Shown piece by piece: positions 9,865 through 49,427 of a stretch of DNA of 64,000 nucleotides. This DNA is from Anaerolinea thermolimosa (GTDB lineage Bacteria; Chloroflexota; Anaerolineae; Anaerolineales; Anaerolineaceae): contig NZ_DF967965.1 in assembly GCF_001050195.2 (NCBI RefSeq), positions 2,602,069-2,666,068 of the forward strand. Direction: 5' to 3'. The notes under the pieces were generated by a model, which was not told the origin of the DNA, ran no database searches, and was given only the letters and a program-made list of their open reading frames with translations. Positions within the stretch are counted from its first letter, which is position 1. The number at the start of each line of letters is the position of its first letter. The position numbers and the translations under genes were made by a program.

Positions 9865-10832
9865 CAAAAAGACACTCTTCTTCTGCTATGGGGCTGATTA
9901 TTCTCTCGCTGGCGCTGGCGCTGGGGTACATGTATTACCTCAATATCGAGAAGAACACCCTGGATATGCGCCTTGATTTGCACCGTCAGATTGTTCAAGG
10001 AAGCGCGCCCTCGCCTTACCAGTACCGCGTGCTGGTGCCTTTCCTTGCCGAGGGACTCTTTCGGGTGGAACGGCTCTTCTTTCCCGACTACCGCGCGTTT
10101 GCGCTTTCCTACATTGTACTTAACGTTGGGGCGCTTTTCCTGTGGCTGTGGGCGGGTTTTCGTCTGCTGAGGGTCTGGTATTGCACCGAGTACGCACTCA
10201 TCGGCACACTGTTTGTGGCGGCAGTGACGCCGCTGACCTTCTACGACCATTACTTTCAACCCTGGTCGTTCTGGGAAGCGTTTTTCTATCTTCTGGCACT
10301 GTTCCTTATGGTAAAGGGATATTGGGGTTGGCTGGCGGGAGTAGTTTTGCTGGCGTCGCTTAACCGCGAAACGGCGGTGCTGATTCTGCCGGCTTTTGCC
10401 CTCACCGTGCTGGCGGGAGAGCGCCTGCTCAACCTGCGCGGATGGCAATGGACATGCACCGGCTGGCTGGTGCTGTACTCCCTGCTCTGGGGCGGGGTGC
10501 TTTTATTACTGCGCTGGTTGCGTCCTGGTATGCCTCATGTGGAAACGTTGGCACAGATATGGCAATTCAATATCCAGCCCGCTCATTTGTTCAGGGCGGG
10601 GGTCCACTGGGGGCTCTTCCTGGGGGGATTCTGGTTGCTGGCGTTCCTGGCTTACCGCCGCGCGCCGCTGTTTCTTCAACGAGTGGCATGGGTACTAGGC
10701 ATTCATCTGCCATTGATCCTGGTATGGGGTTACTGGCAGGAAGTACGGATGTTGTTACCCCATATCTTCGTATTTGTCGGTTTGGGGCTGGCAGCGTTCC
10801 CTGAGGCGCTCAACCCTTCCCCCAATCTCTAG
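9861..10832 (+). CDS. Polytopic membrane protein of unknown function
   Basis: 323 residues with an N-terminal membrane helix and about seven more hydrophobic segments. PYQYRVLVPFLAEGLF (near 50-65), YDHYFQPWSFWEAFFY and LASLNRETAVLILPAF resemble motifs of poorly characterised GT-C-like membrane proteins in bacterial glycan clusters. It overlaps the upstream membrane protein by ATGA and ends the plus-strand arm of the locus, facing the convergent sugar-transferase gene. I infer a part in glycan synthesis or modification from position only. Confidence 0.6.
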   Translation: MTKRHSSSAMGLIILSLALALGYMYYLNIEKNTLDMRLDLHRQIVQGSAPSPYQYRVLVPFLAEGLFRVERLFFPDYRAFALSYIVLNVGALFLWLWAGFRLLRVWYCTEYALIGTLFVAAVTPLTFYDHYFQPWSFWEAFFYLLALFLMVKGYWGWLAGVVLLASLNRETAVLILPAFALTVLAGERLLNLRGWQWTCTGWLVLYSLLWGGVLLLLRWLRPGMPHVETLAQIWQFNIQPAHLFRAGVHWGLFLGGFWLLAFLAYRRAPLFLQRVAWVLGIHLPLILVWGYWQEVRMLLPHIFVFVGLGLAAFPEALNPSPNL

Positions 10833-10956
10833 CACCTGTCGCCGCAACAGAAAGCTCAGTCTGGCCATTACTTGCTCATAAATCAAAACCCATTTATCTC
10901 TTCATTTCACGGGCAGCCAATCTATCTTTCCACTCCCATCTTTCAAAAGCCAATAT
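10833..10956. other. Convergent intergenic spacer without visible features
   Basis: 124 bp between the ends of two converging gene sets. I see no reading frame, hairpin with T tract or repeat in it. Confidence 0.5.
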
Positions 10957-12366
10957 TCAATACGCTCCCTTGCCTTGCAAAACCACCCACACCGTACGGG
11001 CCAAAATTTTCAGATCCAACCAGAGGGAATAGTTCTGCACATAATAGAGGTCTTCATCGGTATGCAGGTGCATGGGTTTATCACTGCGCCCGTTGACCTG
11101 CCACCAGCCGGTGATTCCCTGAGGAACCGTAAAACGCCGTCTTTGCCAGAGATCATACCGCTCAACCAGTTCCGGCATCTCTGGCCGTGGACCCACCAGA
11201 CTCATTTCTCCGCGCAACACATTAAACAACTGAGGGAGTTCATCCAGGCTGGATCGCCGCAGGAAGCGCCCCACCCGGGTTACGCGCGGATCATCCGGCC
11301 GTTTATGGAGAATATGGCCTTCATCGTCCCTCCAGATTACCTGAGCCTGGAGTTTATCTGCACCTTGAACCATGGTACGGAATTTCATCATCCAGAATAT
11401 CCGTCCATTCTCTCCTACCCGCCGCGCCCGATACAAGACCGGCCCGGGGCTATCCAATCGGATCAGCAGAGCAATCAGGCCCATCAAGGGTAAAGCGAAT
11501 AGTAATAATAGAAGCGTTACTCCCAAATCAAAAGCACGCTTCACCATGCGCTGATATTCATTCAAAGCCGGAGCACGTAAATCAAGCATGGGTATTCCCG
11601 CAAATTCTTCAACCTTCGCCCGGTGTAACGTCAGCGAAAAATAATCTGGAATGACCCAGACCCTCACAGGCAAATCATGTAAAACATTAACGATCTCAGC
11701 CAATCGTTGATGTTCAGATCGGGGAAGGGCGATCACCACATCATCTACTCCATGCTCGATGATCACCCGACGAGACACATCCAGCGAACCAAAAATATCC
11801 GCATGATCGGCCTGACGTTGCCAGTCATCATCAAGAAATCCGACTACTCTCAAGCCAAGGGCGCTGTTGTCGCGTATATTCTTCTCCAATTCTCGGCCAG
11901 TTTCTCCAGCTCCCAAAATTAATACCTGGCGTATCCGAGAGTGTATGCCATTTTTTCTAAATACCACCCGTGCAAGCAACCGCCAGCTCAACAGCCAGCT
12001 ATATGCAGTTCCAGTGGCCATCAGGAATAAAAATCTTGAGACCTCACGGTACGTCAGGTAAAGAATTCCGGCCAGAGAAAAAGTAGCCAGTAATGATCCA
12101 AGCGTCAGGCCAGCGAATTCATCGGTAAAGCGAAAATTTTTTCGTCCATCATACACAGAAAACAACAGCAAAACACCTGCCCACAACAAAGGAAAAATTC
12201 CATAGAGACTCCAGGGCAACCTGACAGGCTCCAGAACTTTGAGGAAAGGTAAATAACCTGTCAGCGGTTCGCGCAACTCAGCAGCCAGAAAAAGCGCCGC
12301 ATCCACAAGCATCATATCCAGAACGATGGAAAAGAGGGCAAAGTTGACAGAAAAGCGCCGGAACAT
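10957..12366 (-). CDS. Undecaprenyl-phosphate sugar-1-phosphate transferase (WbaP/EpsL family)
   Basis: 469-residue polyprenol-phosphate sugar-phosphate transferase that would start glycan repeat synthesis by loading the first sugar phosphate on undecaprenyl phosphate. The N-terminal part has about four or five membrane segments. It is followed by a nucleotide-binding-like domain (RQVLILGAGETGRELEKNI, about 155-175), a re-entrant hydrophobic helix (near 275-300) and the catalytic core with KFRTM, RRSSLDELPQLFNVL and GEMSLVGPRP. I prefer the ATG at 12366, one base after the upstream stop. An ATG at 12393 would add nine residues and overlap the upstream gene. It is the last gene of the minus-strand operon. 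Confidence 0.9.
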   Translation of the reverse strand: MFRRFSVNFALFSIVLDMMLVDAALFLAAELREPLTGYLPFLKVLEPVRLPWSLYGIFPLLWAGVLLLFSVYDGRKNFRFTDEFAGLTLGSLLATFSLAGILYLTYREVSRFLFLMATGTAYSWLLSWRLLARVVFRKNGIHSRIRQVLILGAGETGRELEKNIRDNSALGLRVVGFLDDDWQRQADHADIFGSLDVSRRVIIEHGVDDVVIALPRSEHQRLAEIVNVLHDLPVRVWVIPDYFSLTLHRAKVEEFAGIPMLDLRAPALNEYQRMVKRAFDLGVTLLLLLFALPLMGLIALLIRLDSPGPVLYRARRVGENGRIFWMMKFRTMVQGADKLQAQVIWRDDEGHILHKRPDDPRVTRVGRFLRRSSLDELPQLFNVLRGEMSLVGPRPEMPELVERYDLWQRRRFTVPQGITGWWQVNGRSDKPMHLHTDEDLYYVQNYSLWLDLKILARTVWVVLQGKGAY

Positions 12367-40962: not shown

Positions 40963-43518
40963 TTATTCGTAGCGCAGAGCCTCCACTACATCCAGCCGGG
41001 TAGCCTGGCGGGCGGGAGCCATGGCCGCCAGAGCGCCAAAGATGATACCGATGGCCACAGTGGATAAGATGCCCGAGGCCGGGAAGATGTAAGTCATCGG
41101 GAAGCCCAGGGCTTCAAAAGTCTTGACTGCCATATAACCCATATACAACCCGGCCAGGATGCCAAACGCCGTACCAATGGCCGAAAGGATCAGCGCTTCA
41201 GAGAGAATGACAGTTCGCACCTGTCTGCGGGTTGCCCCAACCGCACGCAACATACCAATCTCACGTGTGCGTTCAAGCACCCCGATCGCCAGGGTGTTTA
41301 CCATCGCAATGAGAGACGGGATCGCCAGGAAAGCGGCCATTGCATACATGCTGAAAAAGACCGCATCAAACATCTTACGGTTTTCTTCAACGTAAGCCTT
41401 CCCGTTGAGAAGTTTAAATTGCGGATAATTTTTAAGCAACCGGGTAAAAGCTGCCTCTACCTCAGCGCGATCGGCGCCGGGCTTCAGGTTGATCTGGTAG
41501 AACACGTCCTCATCACGACCAAAATCGGCGGCTATGTTTTTCTGCGATATATAGCCCGTGGTCGTCTTGGCATTCAAGTAGTCCGTAGCGATCCCCACCA
41601 CCCGGTAGGTTTGCTCACCGGTAGGGGTCACAAGCGTCACCTCATCACCAAGATGGATGCCTGCTGCTGAAGAAAGCACCCCGTTGACAATGATGGCGCG
41701 TTCCTGCTCCAGCGCCGTGAACGCACTATCGGGGTCTCCAGAGGTGAAAGTCAACCCGTCCAATTGCCGGTAGGCTTGCGGGTCAATCCCCAGCACTCCT
41801 ACAGCCACATCTTTAATTTGCGAGCCAGCAAAACGCAGCGTACTCACCAGCGCCACCCCGGGGATTTCGCGCAGTTTCTGAGCCAGATCAGGCGCCGCCC
41901 CGGTGTTCGAGCCCCATACTGCCAGGGTAGGCGGCATGAGCAAATAATCGCTTCCCAGGCTCTTTTCCATAATATTCACAAATGTAAGGGAAAGCGAAGT
42001 AAGCACTGAGGCCATCATCACCACCACAGCCATTGCGATCATCGTCGTCGAGGCAGTCACCGTGGCACGGCCAGGTTGGCGGCTCAGGTTCCCTTCCGCA
42101 AGCTGGGCTGTTCCGTTGCGGGCAAAGATCAGCGCCAGCAGATAACCAAACAGGTTGGCAATCGGGTTAATCAGTGCCGGGGCCATCAGGATAAGCGCCA
42201 CCGACATCAAAATCGCACCCAGCCCAAGCAGAGCGGCCTGCCGACTGACGAGAATACCCGCCGCCAGTGCCAGCAGCACCACCCCTGCCCAGAAAGAAAA
42301 GCCCGCAATCCGCCTGAAGGAAACCCCGCCTACCGAAGGTCGGAGGGCTTCAAGGGGTGTCACCCGCGAGGCAGATTGCGCCGGCAACAAACCGGCCAGA
42401 ACCGTAACCCCTACTCCCAGAATAATGGATGTAACTACCAGGCTGGGAGATACCTCGGGGGCGCCCACTTTAATGTTGAGATACTGCTGGCCGATGGGCA
42501 CAATCAGTTGCAAGATGAGATAACCGAATACATAGCCCAGTACCAGGCCCGCCGCAGTTCCCACAATACCCTGGATCAGTCCTTCAGCCAGGATCATCCA
42601 TCGAATGGTTGAACGGCTGGCGCCCAGCGCGCGTAACATGCCAATATCCCGGCGGCGTTCTGCCACAATGGTGCGGAAGGTGTTAAAGATGATGAACCCT
42701 CCCATCAGCAATGCCAGGAAGCCCATCAGGTTAAAGATCATCTGAGCATTGCGAATGTTGGTGAGAATCTCTGAACCGCTTTCCAGAGCCCCAACCTTAT
42801 AATTGCTCCCCACAGCTTCGATAATCCGCTGTTGAATTTCTGCCCGTCGAGCTTCATCCATGGTATTGAGGTTGGCATCGATAATGTTGATCTTTCCAGG
42901 CATATTGAGGAGCTGTTGTGCCTCCGAAAGCGTAACCAGCACCTCTTCATTTCCGGGCATCATCCGTTCGGGAAGAATCCCAACCACCTTCAGGTCAACC
43001 ACACCAATGGCGGTCGGCAAAGAAAGGGTACCCCCCAGTTGTACACCGACCTCTCGCGCCAGCGAACGGGTAATCACAGCCGCATGGGTATCTCCAGGCT
43101 CAAGAAAACGCCCTTCGACAATGTTATAGGCAATCATTTGCCGGGCAACCTCGGGGTCAATTCCCTTGAGCACCACCGCACTGATGCGGTCCACAGCATT
43201 CGGATCGCGGTCAAAATAATCGGCTGGCAGGTTAATCACCCGTTCCAGAGAACCCGCGGCCACTTCCACACCATCTACTGCGCGCACCTTCTCTAAAACC
43301 GATGGGTCGAACGCCTCACCAATTTTATGCGTCAGCGTCACATCAACCTGACCGGCAGCAGCCATCACCTGCGTCTGAAAAGCTTTCACAAAGGTGGGCA
43401 TGAAAGTGTTCATGCCAAAAATGACCAGCACCCCAAAGACAATCGCCAGGGTAGTCAAAATGGTGCGCTGTTTCCGGCCCATTAAATAACGCCAGGCAAG
43501 AAGCCACTGGAAAGTCAT
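40963..43518 (-). CDS. ABC transporter permease, MacB/FtsX type
   Basis: 851-residue permease with two FtsX cores. Each has one N-terminal helix, a large extracytoplasmic domain and three clustered helices (EIGMLRAVGATRRQVRTVILSE near the C-terminal core; DIGMLRALGASRSTIRWMILAEG at the first). This duplicated arrangement is that of LolE/MacB-like export or mechanotransmission systems. The first bases overlap the ATPase gene (ATGA). With PadR upstream, a role in export of an antibiotic-like or lipid substrate is possible but not shown. Confidence 0.88.
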   Translation of the reverse strand: MTFQWLLAWRYLMGRKQRTILTTLAIVFGVLVIFGMNTFMPTFVKAFQTQVMAAAGQVDVTLTHKIGEAFDPSVLEKVRAVDGVEVAAGSLERVINLPADYFDRDPNAVDRISAVVLKGIDPEVARQMIAYNIVEGRFLEPGDTHAAVITRSLAREVGVQLGGTLSLPTAIGVVDLKVVGILPERMMPGNEEVLVTLSEAQQLLNMPGKINIIDANLNTMDEARRAEIQQRIIEAVGSNYKVGALESGSEILTNIRNAQMIFNLMGFLALLMGGFIIFNTFRTIVAERRRDIGMLRALGASRSTIRWMILAEGLIQGIVGTAAGLVLGYVFGYLILQLIVPIGQQYLNIKVGAPEVSPSLVVTSIILGVGVTVLAGLLPAQSASRVTPLEALRPSVGGVSFRRIAGFSFWAGVVLLALAAGILVSRQAALLGLGAILMSVALILMAPALINPIANLFGYLLALIFARNGTAQLAEGNLSRQPGRATVTASTTMIAMAVVVMMASVLTSLSLTFVNIMEKSLGSDYLLMPPTLAVWGSNTGAAPDLAQKLREIPGVALVSTLRFAGSQIKDVAVGVLGIDPQAYRQLDGLTFTSGDPDSAFTALEQERAIIVNGVLSSAAGIHLGDEVTLVTPTGEQTYRVVGIATDYLNAKTTTGYISQKNIAADFGRDEDVFYQINLKPGADRAEVEAAFTRLLKNYPQFKLLNGKAYVEENRKMFDAVFFSMYAMAAFLAIPSLIAMVNTLAIGVLERTREIGMLRAVGATRRQVRTVILSEALILSAIGTAFGILAGLYMGYMAVKTFEALGFPMTYIFPASGILSTVAIGIIFGALAAMAPARQATRLDVVEALRYE

Positions 43519-44255
43519 AGCACCTCCATTTTTTCCCGCACTGTCCGGGTATCTTCCTGAGCATTGCCGTTCAAATGGGTCTGATCGACGATTTTTCCGT
43601 CCTTGAGGAAGACGATTCGGTCGGCATAGGCAGCAATGCGCGGGTCATGGGTAACCATAAGAATCGTGCGCCCCCACTCGCTGGAAATCTGCCGCAGCAG
43701 GGTAGCAATTTCGTCTCCGGCGCGCGAATCGAGGTTGCCGGTTGGTTCATCGGCCAGAATGATCAGCGGTTCGTGAGCCAGCGCCCGGGCAATGGCCACT
43801 CGTTGTTGCTGGCCTCCCGAAAGCTCGGCCGGGCGATGATCCAGCCGATCGCTCAAACCCACTCTTTCCAACCATAATCGTGCTCGTTCATGTGCCCTGG
43901 CCACAGGCACACCATCCAGAATCATCGGTAAGGCGGCATTTTCAAGCGCACTGAGAACAGGGATAAGATTGTAAAACTGGAACACGAACCCCATTTTGCG
44001 GCGGCGGATTTCAGTCACCTGATTATCGGTGAGGGTGCTCAATTCCTGCCCATCCAGATATACCTTCCCCTCAGTGGGGCGGTCAAGCCCGCCGATTAAA
44101 TACAACAGGGTTGACTTTCCACACCCGCTGGGGCCCATGACAGCCACAAACTCGCCCTGGCCAATCGAGAGATTAATGCCCTTAAGAGCGGTGACCGCCG
44201 TTTCGCCTTTCCCGTAAACTTTGGTCAGATTTTCTGTGACGACCATTGATTCCAT
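43515..44255 (-). CDS. ABC transporter ATPase (LolD/MacB type), downstream copy
   Basis: 246-residue ATPase of the permease at 40963. Walker A is GPSGCGKST, the signature LSGGQQQR, Walker B IILADEPTGNLD and the switch MVTHDPR. ATG 44255 has GGAGGAA just upstream; the frame extends to 44288. The C-terminus is AQEDTRTVREKMEVL and its stop overlaps the permease start, so this copy keeps the ancestral junction. All but the last residues are identical to the copy at 44304-45032, because a 777-bp unit is exactly duplicated. Confidence 0.9.
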   Translation of the reverse strand: MESMVVTENLTKVYGKGETAVTALKGINLSIGQGEFVAVMGPSGCGKSTLLYLIGGLDRPTEGKVYLDGQELSTLTDNQVTEIRRRKMGFVFQFYNLIPVLSALENAALPMILDGVPVARAHERARLWLERVGLSDRLDHRPAELSGGQQQRVAIARALAHEPLIILADEPTGNLDSRAGDEIATLLRQISSEWGRTILMVTHDPRIAAYADRIVFLKDGKIVDQTHLNGNAQEDTRTVREKMEVL

Positions 44256-44329
44256 GCTTTCCTCCATCGAATAATCCATCCTTCGCAATCAGCTGTTTAT
44301 GAGTCAGCTGTCAGCTTCATTTATCCTGC
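43553..44329. repeat. 777-bp tandem direct repeat, unit 1
   Basis: Identical by reading to 44330-45106. One extra base (C at 44330/45107) is shared at the joint. The unit carries the whole ATPase start, ribosome site and nearly all of its coding region, plus the last codons of padR. Identity includes silent positions and the intergenic part, so the duplication is very recent or an assembly artefact. Confidence 0.85.
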
Positions 44330-45032
44330 CTTCCTGAGCATTGCCGTTCAAATGGGTCTGATCGACGATTTTTCCGTCCTTGAGGAAGACGATTCGGTCG
44401 GCATAGGCAGCAATGCGCGGGTCATGGGTAACCATAAGAATCGTGCGCCCCCACTCGCTGGAAATCTGCCGCAGCAGGGTAGCAATTTCGTCTCCGGCGC
44501 GCGAATCGAGGTTGCCGGTTGGTTCATCGGCCAGAATGATCAGCGGTTCGTGAGCCAGCGCCCGGGCAATGGCCACTCGTTGTTGCTGGCCTCCCGAAAG
44601 CTCGGCCGGGCGATGATCCAGCCGATCGCTCAAACCCACTCTTTCCAACCATAATCGTGCTCGTTCATGTGCCCTGGCCACAGGCACACCATCCAGAATC
44701 ATCGGTAAGGCGGCATTTTCAAGCGCACTGAGAACAGGGATAAGATTGTAAAACTGGAACACGAACCCCATTTTGCGGCGGCGGATTTCAGTCACCTGAT
44801 TATCGGTGAGGGTGCTCAATTCCTGCCCATCCAGATATACCTTCCCCTCAGTGGGGCGGTCAAGCCCGCCGATTAAATACAACAGGGTTGACTTTCCACA
44901 CCCGCTGGGGCCCATGACAGCCACAAACTCGCCCTGGCCAATCGAGAGATTAATGCCCTTAAGAGCGGTGACCGCCGTTTCGCCTTTCCCGTAAACTTTG
45001 GTCAGATTTTCTGTGACGACCATTGATTCCAT
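44304..45032 (-). CDS. ABC transporter ATPase (LolD/MacB type), upstream duplicate copy
   Basis: 242-residue second copy of the ATPase, with the same Walker A, signature and Walker B as its neighbour. The last residues differ (AQEGRINEADS in place of AQEDTRTVREKMEVL) because the joint of the duplication replaces the native end by sequence from the padR-ATPase gap. Motifs are complete, so it may be active. The same ribosome site GGAGGAA precedes ATG 45032. It lies directly after padR. It may raise ATPase dosage or form heterodimers with the native copy. Confidence 0.85.
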   Translation of the reverse strand: MESMVVTENLTKVYGKGETAVTALKGINLSIGQGEFVAVMGPSGCGKSTLLYLIGGLDRPTEGKVYLDGQELSTLTDNQVTEIRRRKMGFVFQFYNLIPVLSALENAALPMILDGVPVARAHERARLWLERVGLSDRLDHRPAELSGGQQQRVAIARALAHEPLIILADEPTGNLDSRAGDEIATLLRQISSEWGRTILMVTHDPRIAAYADRIVFLKDGKIVDQTHLNGNAQEGRINEADS

Positions 45033-45106
45033 GCTTTCCTCCATCGAATAATCCATCCTTCGCAATCAGCTGTTTATGAGTCAGCTGTCAGCTTCATTTA
45101 TCCTGC
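44330..45106. repeat. 777-bp tandem direct repeat, unit 2
   Basis: Second unit of the duplication at 43553-44329. The length is a multiple of three and the unit contains a whole start region, so no gene is broken. No insertion sequence or long flanking homology is visible at the joint; only one base is shared there. Confidence 0.85.
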
Positions 45107-45688
45107 CCGTTTTCCAGGCGGACGGCCCCGCGGGCGCATTTCTGGCTCCGGCAGAGGCTGACGGGCAACCTCATCCAAACGCGCTTCGATCATATCCATC
45201 CAGCGTAAATCGGCCTCGATATGCATGATGGCCTGATCGAGCAGCAAAATATGCGCCAGGTCCCGGCGCGGGTCAAGCGTCATACGGCGTTCAGTCAAGT
45301 CGTGTAATTCCTGATACAGGCTCGAACGCTGGGCATAAATGACCTCTCGCGGGTCAACATATCCGGTGGCCACCGCCAGCATCAATTTGATGAAAAACTC
45401 ATCCCGCTGGCGTTCACTGCGTACGGGTTGCTCAAACCACGACTTTAACTCATCCCGCCCGGCAGGGGTGAGAGCATACATCTGCCGTTCGTTTCCGTTC
45501 TCATCCCCCGAGGGAACCTCAACGATCAGACCATTTTCTTTGAGCCGCGCCAGCGTAGTATAGACCTGGGCAGGTTTGACCTCCCAAACCTCCCGTCCCC
45601 CGGCCATGGTTTCAAAAGCTTGCAAAAGCTCATACCCATGACGGGGACGCTGACTGAGTAAGCCTAACAGAGCATTACGAACGCTCAT
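45098..45688 (-). CDS. PadR-family transcriptional regulator
   Basis: 196-residue PadR protein: winged helix SVRNALLGLLSQRPRHGYELLQAFE (2-26), then VYTTLARLKENGLIVE (recognition region) and a long C-terminal helical part for dimerisation. It is first in the operon with the two ATPase copies and the permease. The 20-bp inverted repeat at 45693-45751 flanks its promoter, so it probably represses its own transporter operon until a ligand, likely a transported drug or phenolic compound, binds. The last codons lie within the duplicated unit. Confidence 0.88.
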   Translation of the reverse strand: MSVRNALLGLLSQRPRHGYELLQAFETMAGGREVWEVKPAQVYTTLARLKENGLIVEVPSGDENGNERQMYALTPAGRDELKSWFEQPVRSERQRDEFFIKLMLAVATGYVDPREVIYAQRSSLYQELHDLTERRMTLDPRRDLAHILLLDQAIMHIEADLRWMDMIEARLDEVARQPLPEPEMRPRGRPPGKRAG

Positions 45689-45692
45689 AATA

Positions 45693-45751
45693 AAAAAATA
45701 TTAACTCGTTTTCTAATTTCTGTAATAATATAAAACGAGTTAATATTTTTT
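45693..45751. promoter_or_regulatory. 20-bp perfect inverted repeat at the padR promoter
   Basis: Arms 45693-45712 and 45732-45751 are exact reverse complements, separated by 19 nt. The core of each arm is TATTAACTCGTTTT or its complement. One arm lies between -35 and -10 and the other after the transcription start. This is a probable PadR operator pair, although it does not show the classic ATGT-N8-ACAT pattern. Confidence 0.65.
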
Positions 45752-45756
45752 GTCAA
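45727..45756 (-). promoter_or_regulatory. Promoter of the padR-ABC operon
   Basis: Minus strand TTGACA (45756-45751), 18-nt spacer, TATATT (45732-45727). It is interleaved with the inverted repeat. Confidence 0.68.
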
Positions 45757-45774: not shown

Positions 45775-46824
45775 TTATTGAGCAGCTTCGTAAATACGCT
45801 GAACTTCTTCCTCGAATTGCCGGGCCAGTTTTGCATCCCGAATGATTAATAAATTCTCATCGTTGGTCTCATCCGCGCTTCGGGTGAAATTATATGAACC
45901 CGTAACCACCGTTTCACCATCGATCACCAGGACTTTTTCATGCATTAACCCCGGGTTGCCATCCAGGCGCACATCCAGCCCGGCACGGCGCAAAGCAGTA
46001 TAATCACTCCCGGCGGCATCCGACTGATCCGCGTCGAAAACCCCGCGAACCTGCACCCCCCGCCGGGCCGCCTCGATCATTGCATCGCGCAGATCATCAC
46101 GGGTGAAGGTATAGGCCAGAAAGTCAATCCTCTCTCTGGCCCCCTGAACGCGCTCCACAAGGGTACGTCCCGGGCGGTCATCCGGCGCAAAACAGACCTC
46201 CACCTCCATTCCATCCACATTCACCTGTCGGTCTTTCAACGGGAGAGCCTGACCTCCTCCAAACAGGTGCGCCGTAAACATTTCCTCAAATTCTGCCCGG
46301 TAAAGCGCAACCAGTTTACCCGAACGGATGCGAAGGAACACGTTGTGGTCTTGATCCAGGCTGGCCGGCGTGAGGTTGAGCGACCCACTCCACAGAATCT
46401 CATCATCGATGAGAATGAACTTGTTATGCATCAACCCTTCTCGACGATCTCCTATCAGCGGAATCTTTCCCTGTTGCAGTCGTTGAACCGCCCTGTTATC
46501 GAGCGCATCACTGTCAATCACCATCCTTACTGCCACCCCCCGCTCCGCTGCCGCAAGAAGCGCGTTGGCAGCTTCCAGCCAGGAGAAATTGTACATGGCA
46601 ACGTCGATGCGAACCCTGGCACTGGCAATTGAATCCAGCAACGCCTCACGCAAAGCCTGAGAACCATCTGGTTTTCCCGGTGAGGTAAAAAACACTGCAA
46701 CAGGTTCTGCCTCCGCGCTTTCTTGAAGGGTGGGCTGATCCCCGGAAAGTGAAATGAACTCACAACCTGTCAGGAATGAGAGCAAGAGAACCAGAGCAAT
46801 GGCCTGGCAAAGCCCTTTGTTCAA
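45775..46824 (-). CDS. Phospholipase D-family lipoprotein with two HKD motifs
   Basis: 349-residue exported protein. The signal ends in the lipobox SFLTGC. Two PLD-like half-sites are present: MHNKFILIDDEILWSGSLN (near 150) and MHEKVLVIDGETVVTGSYNFT (near 290), each with H-x-K-x4-D and a downstream serine/asparagine set. The protein could be a phosphodiesterase (lipid or nucleic acid) at the outer face of the membrane. I chose TTG 46824 with GGGAG upstream; the frame extends to 46923 into the preceding gene but without a signal-like start. It is the last gene of the zinc-ribbon operon. Confidence 0.8.
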   Translation of the reverse strand: MNKGLCQAIALVLLLSFLTGCEFISLSGDQPTLQESAEAEPVAVFFTSPGKPDGSQALREALLDSIASARVRIDVAMYNFSWLEAANALLAAAERGVAVRMVIDSDALDNRAVQRLQQGKIPLIGDRREGLMHNKFILIDDEILWSGSLNLTPASLDQDHNVFLRIRSGKLVALYRAEFEEMFTAHLFGGGQALPLKDRQVNVDGMEVEVCFAPDDRPGRTLVERVQGARERIDFLAYTFTRDDLRDAMIEAARRGVQVRGVFDADQSDAAGSDYTALRRAGLDVRLDGNPGLMHEKVLVIDGETVVTGSYNFTRSADETNDENLLIIRDAKLARQFEEEVQRIYEAAQ

Positions 46825-46858
46825 AGATCGCTCCCGTGCTTCATGGAATGTTTTTACT

Positions 46859-47398
46859 TCAGGGGAGTATCCACAACTGCGGCGAGTCGAGCCCGATTTC
46901 AAACCGAAATTCTCGAAGGGCATCCTTGCGTTCCGCTTCGATGTTCATCACCATAAATTCAGCCAGCGGCACAAGATCTTCAGGTGAGACCACCACCGGT
47001 TTGAAAGGCACCGGGCTGCCCACTTCCATGCGCACTGGCTGAAGCAGATACTTCACCCCCAATGCCACACTTTCTTCAATTTTCAGGCGGAATGCCGGGA
47101 TGAAAAACAGCCGGGGCACCGCCCACCAGGTATGCATCTCCTGGCTCGCATCGCCCTGATACGTCTGTCGAACCAGAGGGCGTACCACCCCCCGTGCCAC
47201 CCAGAAGGGATTTCCCACCTTTCCCGAAGGAACCGCACTGGAGAAAAAAACATCCAGCCGCTGTACACCCTCTTCATCCGACAGGAGCATTCCCTGCCCG
47301 CATTGGGCACACACCCACGCCACTTCATCGGGCTGGGCAGCCACCGGCGTAGAGCAACGCGGGCATTGCAACGGGATCAACCGCACTCGCTCGCTCAT
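46859..47398 (-). CDS. Zinc-ribbon protein, unknown function (third of three)
   Basis: 179 residues. An N-terminal zinc ribbon is CPRCSTPVAAQ ... CAQCGQGM (near 12-36). The rest has no membrane segment I can see, but includes WAVPRLFFIPAFRL, which resembles the VHVPIF/VHIPFW segment of the two upstream proteins. It overlaps the gene at 47395 by ATGA. I do not recognise a named family. The three proteins look like products of duplication with loss of the C-terminal membrane part in this one. Confidence 0.7.
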   Translation of the reverse strand: MSERVRLIPLQCPRCSTPVAAQPDEVAWVCAQCGQGMLLSDEEGVQRLDVFFSSAVPSGKVGNPFWVARGVVRPLVRQTYQGDASQEMHTWWAVPRLFFIPAFRLKIEESVALGVKYLLQPVRMEVGSPVPFKPVVVSPEDLVPLAEFMVMNIEAERKDALREFRFEIGLDSPQLWILP

Positions 47399-48447
47399 TC
47401 GATGAACCTCTGAACTTCTCGCACAATATCCTTCACGTCCAGCAAATCACCACCCAAACCCGATGCCGATTCCTGGTTTGCCTTATACCGATGGTATTCC
47501 ACCTGCTCACCATAACGGAATTTTTGCCAGCCAGCAACCATTAACCCGATCCCTGCTGCCAGGCTGATCAGAGCTATACCGAGAATGTCGCTGTCATCCG
47601 AGAGGGATACGATCAACGCCGGAACATCCACCGCCACAAAAGCCCCCACTGCCATTCCGCCAACCAGCATAGCGGCCCGGTACAGAACATTCCCCGGCGC
47701 TTTACCATACAGAACCTGGCCATCAAAACCATCAATCACCACCTGAAAGGCCCGTCCGCGATAGAGGTAGCGCAACACCCAGACCGGATAATAGACCAGC
47801 CCCAGCCTCGCGCCAAGAATACGTGTAAAAAGTTGAGAGGTTCGGCTGAGCTTTACTCTGGAGGCTACCCACTCCTCAAAGGATTTGCGGGCCGATTCCA
47901 GGGCTCTCTCAGGTGAGCCTACCGGTTCAAAAACCATGCCGCTGTAATGGAGCTGATCACTATTGAAAGGCTCCAGAGGGCGCCCCTCCAGAGAGATGCG
48001 CCGCACCCCGAACTCGCCCACATCACAGGCCACTTCGTTCCAGCTCACCTCGCTGAGTGCACGCTTCTCCCGCGGAACGTACCGCTTGTTCTCACCACTT
48101 CCAACCCGTTCCTGGCCGAAAGCCCAGGCCACCCCTTGCCCCCATGCCGCCCAGAAGGGTATGTGCACTAAAAAAGCCTCACTGATTTCCGCCCTGCGTA
48201 AAGTATCTCTTGCAATGGCCACACCACGGGTAAGAAACTGGCGCAAAGACTCCAGCGCCTGTTCTCGCTTCACCCGCAGAGGAACCTGATACCGGCGTAC
48301 TCCCCTTTCACCGCTGACGACGGAGCGCATCTCACAAAAAGGGCAAATGACCAGTGCCTGCCCTTCGGGAACGGGCACCGTACCCCCGCAGCGCGGGCAG
48401 GTAAGGCCGAGTAAACCTTTTTCGCTCATACTCTTGCCGCCACCCAT
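47395..48447 (-). CDS. Zinc-ribbon membrane protein, unknown function (second of three)
   Basis: 350 residues. A zinc ribbon CPRCGGTVPVPEG ... CPFCEMRS lies near 15-40. A middle domain follows with FLVHIPFWAAWGQG and, near 220, YYPVWVLRYLYRGRAFQVVIDG. Two or three membrane segments (GGMAVGAFVAVDVPALIVSL; ISLAAGIGLMVAG) lie near the C-terminus. The same layout appears in the protein at 48426. It overlaps both neighbours. I suspect a membrane sensor or scaffold, but no function can be given. Confidence 0.7.
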   Translation of the reverse strand: MGGGKSMSEKGLLGLTCPRCGGTVPVPEGQALVICPFCEMRSVVSGERGVRRYQVPLRVKREQALESLRQFLTRGVAIARDTLRRAEISEAFLVHIPFWAAWGQGVAWAFGQERVGSGENKRYVPREKRALSEVSWNEVACDVGEFGVRRISLEGRPLEPFNSDQLHYSGMVFEPVGSPERALESARKSFEEWVASRVKLSRTSQLFTRILGARLGLVYYPVWVLRYLYRGRAFQVVIDGFDGQVLYGKAPGNVLYRAAMLVGGMAVGAFVAVDVPALIVSLSDDSDILGIALISLAAGIGLMVAGWQKFRYGEQVEYHRYKANQESASGLGGDLLDVKDIVREVQRFIE

Positions 48448-49229
48448 CCTGCCCAGGCCATAAGAATCGGGGCAGCGATCAATCCAAGGCCCGAACAGAG
48501 CAAGAAACCAGCTATGGCACCACCATCATGATCAGCGAGCCCCCCAATTACCGGAAAGCTGGCCAGGCAGAGAAACACCACCGCCGCCACCCCACCCACC
48601 AAGCGGTAAGGAAGTTCCGCCTTGGCCGGGTAAACATTGGCCAGCACTGACCCCGTCGCCGCATCCACCACCGCGGTGTACGTCTCTCCGCGATAGAGGT
48701 ACTTGAATTCAAAAATGGGTACATGCACCAGAGCCATCTCCTCTACCTTCGCCCCGGCATGACTCTGACGGAACCAGTCCAGGCCTGCCTCAAGGGGCAC
48801 GCTGGGCGGCTCAGAATCGCCTTCCAGGGAGGGGGCATACGGCCGCAGATCGCCCGCCAGCAGGCTAAGGTGTGCCAGCTCGGTTACTGAGGTAGCGGCT
48901 GCCGGTTCCAGAGCAACACGCTCCTGACCATCGCTCTTCCAGCGAAAATACCACAGAGGGAAATACCGAAACGAACGGTTGACAATCTGGGATTTCTGAT
49001 CCAGGTCTTTCACCGTCTCACTGCCCGACATCCAGCGCTTTAATGCCGCTTCTGCCTGTTCCCCATTCAGGGTGGGGGTCAGAACCCAGTGAAACACCGT
49101 TCGCGATTTATCCACAAAGACCGTGGCTCCGCAATAAGGACAGATGATAAAAATCTGTCCCTCGTCGGGGTGGAGTTCTCCCCCACACTGCGGACACGAT
49201 AAAACAGAAAGTGTGTTTGGAGTATTCAC
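48426..49229 (-). CDS. Zinc-ribbon membrane protein, unknown function (first of three)
   Basis: 267 residues, GTG start. A zinc ribbon CPQCGGELHPDEG ... CPYCGATVF (about 11-36) is followed by VHVPIFEFKYLYRGETYTAVVD (near 180), paralogous to the segment in the next protein, and then by three membrane segments. The -10 TATAAT at 49242-49237 sits 7 nt before the GTG, so the operon mRNA seems leaderless. Together with 47395, 46859 and the PLD lipoprotein gene it forms an overlapping operon. Confidence 0.72.
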   Translation of the reverse strand: MNTPNTLSVLSCPQCGGELHPDEGQIFIICPYCGATVFVDKSRTVFHWVLTPTLNGEQAEAALKRWMSGSETVKDLDQKSQIVNRSFRYFPLWYFRWKSDGQERVALEPAAATSVTELAHLSLLAGDLRPYAPSLEGDSEPPSVPLEAGLDWFRQSHAGAKVEEMALVHVPIFEFKYLYRGETYTAVVDAATGSVLANVYPAKAELPYRLVGGVAAVVFLCLASFPVIGGLADHDGGAIAGFLLCSGLGLIAAPILMAWAGWVAARV

Positions 49230-49236
49230 GCCCTTT

Positions 49237-49242
49237 ATTATA
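49237..49242 (-). promoter_or_regulatory. -10 element of the zinc-ribbon operon, leaderless arrangement
   Basis: Minus strand TATAAT ends 7 nt upstream of the GTG start at 49229. No convincing -35 and no ribosome site. Confidence 0.5.
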
Positions 49243-49383: not shown

Positions 49384-49416
49384 AAAAAAGTGGGCGGCTG
49401 CAAGGAGCCGCCCACT
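49384..49416 (-). terminator. Rho-independent terminator of the Hsp20 operon
   Basis: Ten-bp stem AGTGGGCGGC/GCCGCCCACT (49407-49416 with 49389-49398), followed on the minus strand by TTTTTTATT. Confidence 0.88.
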
Positions 49417-49427
49417 CTGTCGATGGA

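Follow-up and report, generated by a model that had tools for sequence, protein, structure and literature searches.

What common task is served by three adjoining genes of Anaerolinea thermolimosa, each of which codes for a protein with an N-terminal zinc ribbon? The genes lie in a stretch of 64,000 nucleotides (contig NZ_DF967965.1, positions 2,602,069 to 2,666,068 of the forward strand), which we call the window and to which the coordinates of the locus refer. They stand in a row on the minus strand and are named here A, B and C; a gene for a lipoprotein with a phospholipase D (PLD) fold follows downstream on the same strand. An initial annotation of the window had pointed out these four genes, all of which are present, and had guessed at an envelope stress or lipid-damage module. 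We found no paper on the A-B-C trio in the open-licence literature. The reading that we favour, which in our judgement is evenly poised between right and wrong, is that A-B-C is a three-gene unit of the Chloroflexota, mostly of the Anaerolineae, whose products would form a membrane-anchored, YdjG-derived complex serving as an envelope scaffold independent of PspA.

Conservation of the A-B-C unit

Gene A (48426 to 49229) starts with GTG and encodes 267 residues, gene B (47395 to 48429) encodes 344 and gene C (46859 to 47398) encodes 179. A and B have the same predicted make-up of zinc ribbon, YdjG-type middle domain and C-terminal transmembrane hairpin; C consists of a zinc ribbon and a globular domain with no transmembrane segment. 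The A/B and B/C junctions each read ATGAGC and contain a 4-nt ATGA overlap. The overlaps reported in the initial annotation hold within the trio. Judged by its sequence, the PLD gene most likely starts at TTG 46824, ahead of the lipobox LTGC, and not at ATG 46923; a gap of 34 nt then separates it from C, with no overlap. For B, alignment makes ATG 48429 the most likely start rather than 48447 (the split B pieces of loci L058 and L059 were left out of this alignment).

A species-level genome collection was scanned with the B profile, using two peptide patterns that reach only near relatives of B; 181 stretches matched the pattern and 43 of them encode a B relative. By their titles all 43 loci belong to Chloroflexota and mostly to Anaerolineae (Longilinea among the names checked). 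A lies upstream of B in every one of the 40 loci with room for it. C comes next after B in 40 of 41; the sole exception (L089) is from Candidatus Aquidulcis of the class Limnocylindria. With starts inferred, A and B overlap or lie at most 30 nt apart in 35 of 37 loci, and B and C in 39 of 40. The nearest predicted open reading frame upstream of A runs in the opposite direction in 22 of 38 loci, so A is usually the first gene of the unit. Gene neighbourhoods, which the initial annotation had named as a check, thus bear out a mutual linkage of A, B and C that is far above chance. For the sequence sets drawn from these loci, a minimum length of 235 residues was required for A, 300 for B and 150 for C, and proteins of 420 residues and more after trimming were excluded; this removed one A (L100), two B cut by contig ends (L109, L111) and no C.

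A second comparison covered the genome of the window (4.17 Mb, 99.99 % complete) and 60 relatives of its order. Strong matches to A, all at E 6.4e-79 or better, were present in 13 of these 61 genomes, and matches to C at E 6.1e-35 or better in 14; the weaker A matches were B itself and YdjG-type proteins, and an additional weak C match in genome G029 (E 7.8e-4) spans residues 7-64 only. In the genome with C and no A (G054) the contig ends inside B, where A would be. Further afield, C was found in 4 of 400 sampled genomes of the phylum, two from the genus of the window and two from another family of the same class (f20); the latter two carry A-B-C in order.

Relationship between A, B and C

The zinc ribbons were predicted at 49131 to 49196 in A (C12, C15, C30, C33), at 48334 to 48399 in B (C11, C14, C29, C32) and at 47300 to 47365 in C (C12, C15, C30, C33). 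All four cysteines of the CxxC...CxxC pattern are conserved without exception across 40 sequences of A, 42 of B and 41 of C. The initial annotation had assigned such ribbons to all three proteins and C-terminal membrane helices to two of them. By hydropathy these two are A, with two C-terminal segments in 40 of 40 sequences, and B, with two in 41 of 42 and three in the remaining one; C has none in 39 of 41 and one in 2. The hairpin of A is placed at 48459 to 48602 (residues 210-257) and that of B at 47512 to 47688, where the model has helices at 248-276 and 282-306.

The profiles of A and B can be aligned across almost the whole of both proteins (99.6 % in hhalign) and still align with ribbon and transmembrane parts removed (97.1 %, score 72.2), and on this basis the two are paralogues. 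The middle domains cropped for profile comparison correspond to 48612 to 49106 in A (residues 42-206) and 47692 to 48300 in B (residues 44-246). The motifs HVPIF and HIPFW, which had been taken as equivalent positions, are not: in the alignment the counterpart of HIPFW (B) is YFPLW in A, and that of HVPIF (A) is YYPVW in B. The middle segment thought to be common to all three proteins is indeed shared by A and B but not by C. Whole-length profiles of C match B at 90.7 % (73 columns) and A at 85.5 % (106 columns); without its ribbon C is at control level, scoring 15.2 to 19.7 in the comparison with A, B and the Anaerolineae proteins described below and 15.7 against the five named proteins, so its whole-length matches to A and B rest on the ribbon. 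An internal repeat in B was considered and rejected (score 18.6 over 9 columns, against 15.5 for the reversed sequence).

Kinship of A and B with YdjG-type proteins

Searches of Pfam and NCBIfam left A, B and C without an above-cut-off assignment. The PepSY model (PF03413) has a match in A at E 0.017 that falls short of its cut-off, which fits the published label of YdjG as 'YpeB-related' and proves nothing. The kinship of the middle domain came from profile comparison with a protein of locus L066 and five plasmid-borne proteins, read together with their neighbour genes, and not from the sequence of Bacillus subtilis YdjG. Two ribbons are present in the L066 protein, where Zn_Ribbon_TF exceeds the Pfam cut-off; the protein has a hydrophobic C-terminus, and its gene adjoins a TPM-domain gene (PF04536, E 3.9e-26). 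The plasmid proteins, from Enterococcus, Comamonas, Vibrio, Tsukamurella and Paracoccus (five of the 12 plasmid records found), all have an SPFH gene directly upstream; the Enterococcus one also has a TPM gene downstream, and that of Comamonas is annotated as 'TFIIB-type zinc ribbon-containing protein'. The pspA-ydjGHI operon of B. subtilis likewise combines two ribbons with SPFH and TPM neighbours, and we therefore take the reference family to be that of YdjG. In the available portions of the literature YdjG is described as a protein with two zinc ribbons, a YpeB-related domain and a transmembrane segment (PMC11237479) and as a transmembrane protein with TF_Zn_Ribbon (PMC9239133).

Against 15 Anaerolineae YdjG-type proteins found through L066, cropped B reached 98.3 % (score 94.8) and cropped A 95.3 % (score 56.7), and against the five named plasmid proteins cropped B again reached 98.3 % (score 97.0). 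Controls with A or B in the 15-protein comparison went up to 19.1 when reversed and 20.8 when shuffled; shuffled controls reached 23.0 in the comparison with the five, the highest of either run. Homology of the middle domain of A and B with that of YdjG-type proteins is thus well supported at the level of profiles. Together with this domain, A and B share with YdjG and the SPFH- or TPM-linked zinc-ribbon proteins an N-terminal ribbon and a C-terminal transmembrane anchor. The view of the initial annotation that no system of this kind had been described stands in so far as no Pfam or NCBIfam model covers the middle domain at cut-off, and gives way in that the domain can be assigned to a described family.

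The ribbons raise the question of whether A and B could be membrane-tethered regulators, their ribbons binding DNA or RNA polymerase and their membrane part sensing stress. A regulatory role has been suggested for YdjG on the grounds that its ribbon is Pfam TF_Zn_Ribbon (available text of PMC9239133), and the ribbon of A weakly matches models of TFIIB and of RNA polymerase subunit P. The ribbon matches of A, B and C are however all below curated cut-offs, no other DNA-binding domain was matched in them, and B. subtilis YdjG acts as a membrane recruiter: as reported in the accessible part of PMC8581546, deletion of ydjG or ydjH abolishes the foci and membrane recruitment of YdjI and PspA, with misshapen cells under alkali shock. 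We consider regulation quite improbable for A and B.

YdjG-type proteins also occur in the Anaerolineae in a second arrangement. The L066 protein has matches in 34 of the 61 genomes (cross-matches to A and B counted), in several genomes as a tandem pair that we label X1-X2, in which a protein with two ribbons and a YdjG-type domain, in some cases with a TPR-like part at the N-terminus, is followed by a second copy. X1 has the same middle domain as A and B, and both arrangements consist of tandem paralogues; they differ in the two ribbons of X1 and in C, whose profile finds no match in the X1-X2 loci L135-L142. The pair occurs both with and without the trio, and in L085 A-B-C is immediately preceded by an X1 gene. 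In L135-L142 the second copy has a hydrophobic C-terminus; the next gene after the pair is of fatty-acid hydroxylase type (PF04116) in L135 and a relative of it in L140. In L068 an EcoRV-type restriction endonuclease gene (10203-10991 of that locus; PF09233, E 1.2e-98) stands directly beside an X1-type zinc-ribbon gene.

No PspA, TPM or SPFH partners found for the trio

For B. subtilis, the available sources pair YdjG at the membrane with PspA and with a flotillin-like protein, and they leave its biochemical role open. PspA was not found in the genome of the window by a search whose control was detected in 9 of 14 known genomes, nor was TPM (control detected in 8 of 14). Across the 61 genomes, PspA and TPM were each above the family cut-off in 2, and no match in the 14 trio genomes exceeded either cut-off; the single PspA match below cut-off was in G029. 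Band_7 had five matches in the genome of the window, none of them inside the window. At E 1e-3, two TPM queries matched no open reading frame in the 43 trio loci while recovering the control locus L066, and five SPFH queries likewise matched none, in a run that had no positive SPFH control. The trio differs from the SPFH- and TPM-linked YdjG-type genes in being three different genes in a row, with no such relative found in the 43 loci. It resembles Psp systems in its YdjG-type component and a possible envelope role, and differs from them in that no PspA was found in the genome of the window. Above their cut-offs, PspA and TPM are limited to 2 of the 61 genomes each, yet YdjG-type proteins occur in these genomes in at least two tandem arrangements.

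A scaffold at the membrane as the likely task

We infer the function of the trio by analogy with YdjG. A and B show no N-terminal signal sequence by eye and have two C-terminal transmembrane segments, so that the ribbons and middle domains of both are expected on the cytoplasmic side, where C would likewise reside and dock on A and B. The three coupled genes are kept together, which suggests that A, B and C form one complex. Given the role of YdjG, a membrane scaffold or assembly platform is the likeliest task of this putative complex, which would support envelope integrity independently of PspA. The PLD lipoprotein would act across the membrane from it and would not be a core subunit. The guess of an envelope stress module is compatible with what PMC8581546, as far as available, reports for the YdjG-type family; by analogy it would survive in this form, with three corrections: the Hsp20 genes most likely drop out (see below), PLD is not specific to the trio and C lacks the middle domain. 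A bolder version is a three-subunit, PspA-independent zinc-ribbon membrane machine of the Anaerolineae for envelope maintenance, made of two YdjG-derived membrane subunits and a third with a domain that lacks recognised relatives, and in many lineages accompanied by an extracytoplasmic PLD protein. We put this forward tentatively, as a possibility more open to doubt than the scaffold itself. If true, it would mean that YdjG-type proteins can do a job for which PspA is not required. The trio offers a defined set of three proteins for testing such a PspA-independent function of the family.

Several observations weigh against the scaffold reading. Cropped A compares weakly with the five named proteins taken by themselves (40.1 %, score 32.4 over 29 columns), and the second-copy set X2 is near control level (23.3 against A, 21.9 against B). 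YdjG, the L066 protein and the named set have two tandem ribbons, whereas A, B and C have one each; YdjG is described, in the source as available, with one transmembrane segment, whereas A and B each have two. The genome of the window gave no match to PF08271, the ribbon family cited for YdjG. Judged by its profile, C shares only the zinc ribbon with A and B and no further kinship. The cytoplasmic orientation of A and B is predicted from hydropathy and the structural model only. Trio genome G046 has a TPM match just short of the cut-off (21.5 against 22.1 bits), and G030 carries A on another contig than B, C and the PLD gene. Finally, neither Foldseek nor VIA-align turned up a convincing solved fold for B or for C.

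AlphaFold2 predicts B (predicted local distance difference test, pLDDT, 86.8; predicted template modelling score, pTM, 0.78) as a ribbon, two units of a helix with long strands, a helical hairpin (248-306) and a C-terminal helix, and C (pLDDT 95.1, pTM 0.88) as a compact mixed domain. The best Foldseek match of B had E 0.033 and a TM-score of 0.11, and its best VIA-align match (Z 6.7 over 59 residues at 2.6 A) covers mostly the transmembrane hairpin; a PDB sequence search with the B profile gave nothing below E 0.066, mostly ribbon stretches. For C the best values were E 0.27 in Foldseek, with its ribbon resembling LysW (probability 0.84), and Z 3.6 in VIA-align, with RapA over 113 residues at 6.0 A. 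The fold check envisaged in the initial annotation thus yielded models and no convincing solved relative, and a missing structural match for B or C does not equal a new fold.

A platform of this kind could also be dedicated, as an assembly chaperone, to one particular large complex of the membrane, such as a respiratory or a secretion complex, instead of serving as a general scaffold. Chaperone-like roles have been proposed for band-7, CesT/Tir and TPM partners of PspA (available text of PMC11237479), and the coupling of the three genes suggests a fixed stoichiometry. Against this, no client gene is conserved beside the trio: apart from PLD (26 loci), no neighbour gene family is common to more than 13 of the 43 loci. 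We think a dedicated chaperone unlikely.

The PLD lipoprotein as a frequent neighbour

The PLD gene (45775 to 46824, minus strand, TTG start) is often, not always, a neighbour of the trio. Its product matches PF13091 in two stretches (184.4 bits against a cut-off of 27), with PLDc domains bearing two HxKxxxxD motifs. Both motifs recur in 25 of the 26 related PLD genes of the 43 loci, and the remaining one (L075) runs to a contig end. The PLDc_2 fold and the two motifs are shared with NucT, the endonuclease 1byr and mitochondrial cardiolipin hydrolase; unlike these three the protein here is a predicted two-domain lipoprotein that scores below the curated NucT and DrmC cut-offs.

Another explanation is that the locus is a module for lipid repair or remodelling in which PLD is the working enzyme outside and A-B-C sense the state of the membrane inside and control it. 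Of 39 loci, 24 have PLD no more than 3.5 kb downstream of C and 19 have it within 300 bp; the PDB sequences that match it best are those of mitochondrial cardiolipin hydrolase and endonuclease 1byr; and certain PspA/band-7 operons of Proteobacteria likewise contain PLD genes, according to the part of PMC11237479 available. The distribution of the gene points the other way. PLD of the same type is present in 46 of the 61 genomes (E 1e-20 or better), against 14 with the trio, and 32 of these lack the trio; three trio genomes (G041, G046, G059) have PLD matches only on contigs other than that of the trio, in G054 the gene is 7 kb away on the other strand, and no match was found in the 17-kb stretches around the two f20 loci. 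In addition, nuclease and lipase are indistinguishable from the sequence, and a lipobox-like motif is seen in 15 of the 26 related genes, with a loose pattern and uncertain starts. PLD is a common gene of the order that neighbours the trio in many lineages. It was rejected as an obligatory subunit on the 24 of 39 loci and the 32 trio-free genomes, and the claim that it completes the operon is retained only as a frequent adjacency. A lipid module controlled by the trio seems to us improbable.

A gene for a HerA/DUF87-type ATPase lies downstream in 13 of the 43 loci (L076, L077, L086, L095, L104 and a further eight); in 7 of these it is the next gene after PLD, and in 4 the next after C. With a PLD nuclease as effector and this ATPase in some loci, the trio might be read as part of an anti-phage module: the one ATPase scanned has HerA-like matches and a match to PADLOC mad8 (E 6.4e-13), and PLD has DrmC-like matches. 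Yet PLD scores 84.4 bits against the 133 of the DISARM DrmC equivalog of NCBIfam and bears a lipobox, A, B and C have no PADLOC match at E 0.01, a search of 50,697 phage records with B gave nothing at E 1e-5, and all 43 loci are from Chloroflexota. The PADLOC and phage-record searches give a defence module no support, we hold it to be very unlikely, and HerA is kept as a lead.

Upstream signals and neighbouring genes

Three Hsp20 genes (PF00011) lie upstream of A, as the initial annotation had reported, and are most likely not part of the module. A hairpin of 13 pairs resembling an intrinsic terminator (49387 to 49418, minus strand) stands between the last of them and A and would set the Hsp20 genes apart from the trio, and in related loci Hsp20 occurs within 3.5 kb upstream in only 3 of 35. 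Both points speak against co-transcription, and Hsp20 was rejected as a functional partner on the same grounds. A scan of the region gave 2 terminator-like sites against 4.6 expected from shuffles, a count that carries no meaning in itself, so it is the length of the stem alone that argues for a terminator here.

A TATAAT hexamer resembling a -10 element, noticed by eye, lies at 49237 to 49242 on the minus strand, 7 nt before the GTG of A; a transcript starting there may therefore have almost no leader. A promoter scanner reported no promoter-like site at this hexamer.

Beyond the PLD gene, the window contains an exact tandem repeat (43553 to 45107) with a period of 777 and an identical run of 778 positions. 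It corresponds to two copies of an ABC-transporter ATPase gene on the minus strand (43515 to 44288 and 44304 to 45065; PF00005), the duplication being either very recent or else an artefact of assembly. Next to it is a PadR-family gene (45098 to 45688; PF03551) with a promoter-like site, TTGACA-18-TATATT, at 45687 to 45756. The same interval, ahead of the gene, holds an inverted repeat seen by eye, ACTCGTTTT / AAAACGAGT, which is probably the PadR-family gene's own operator.

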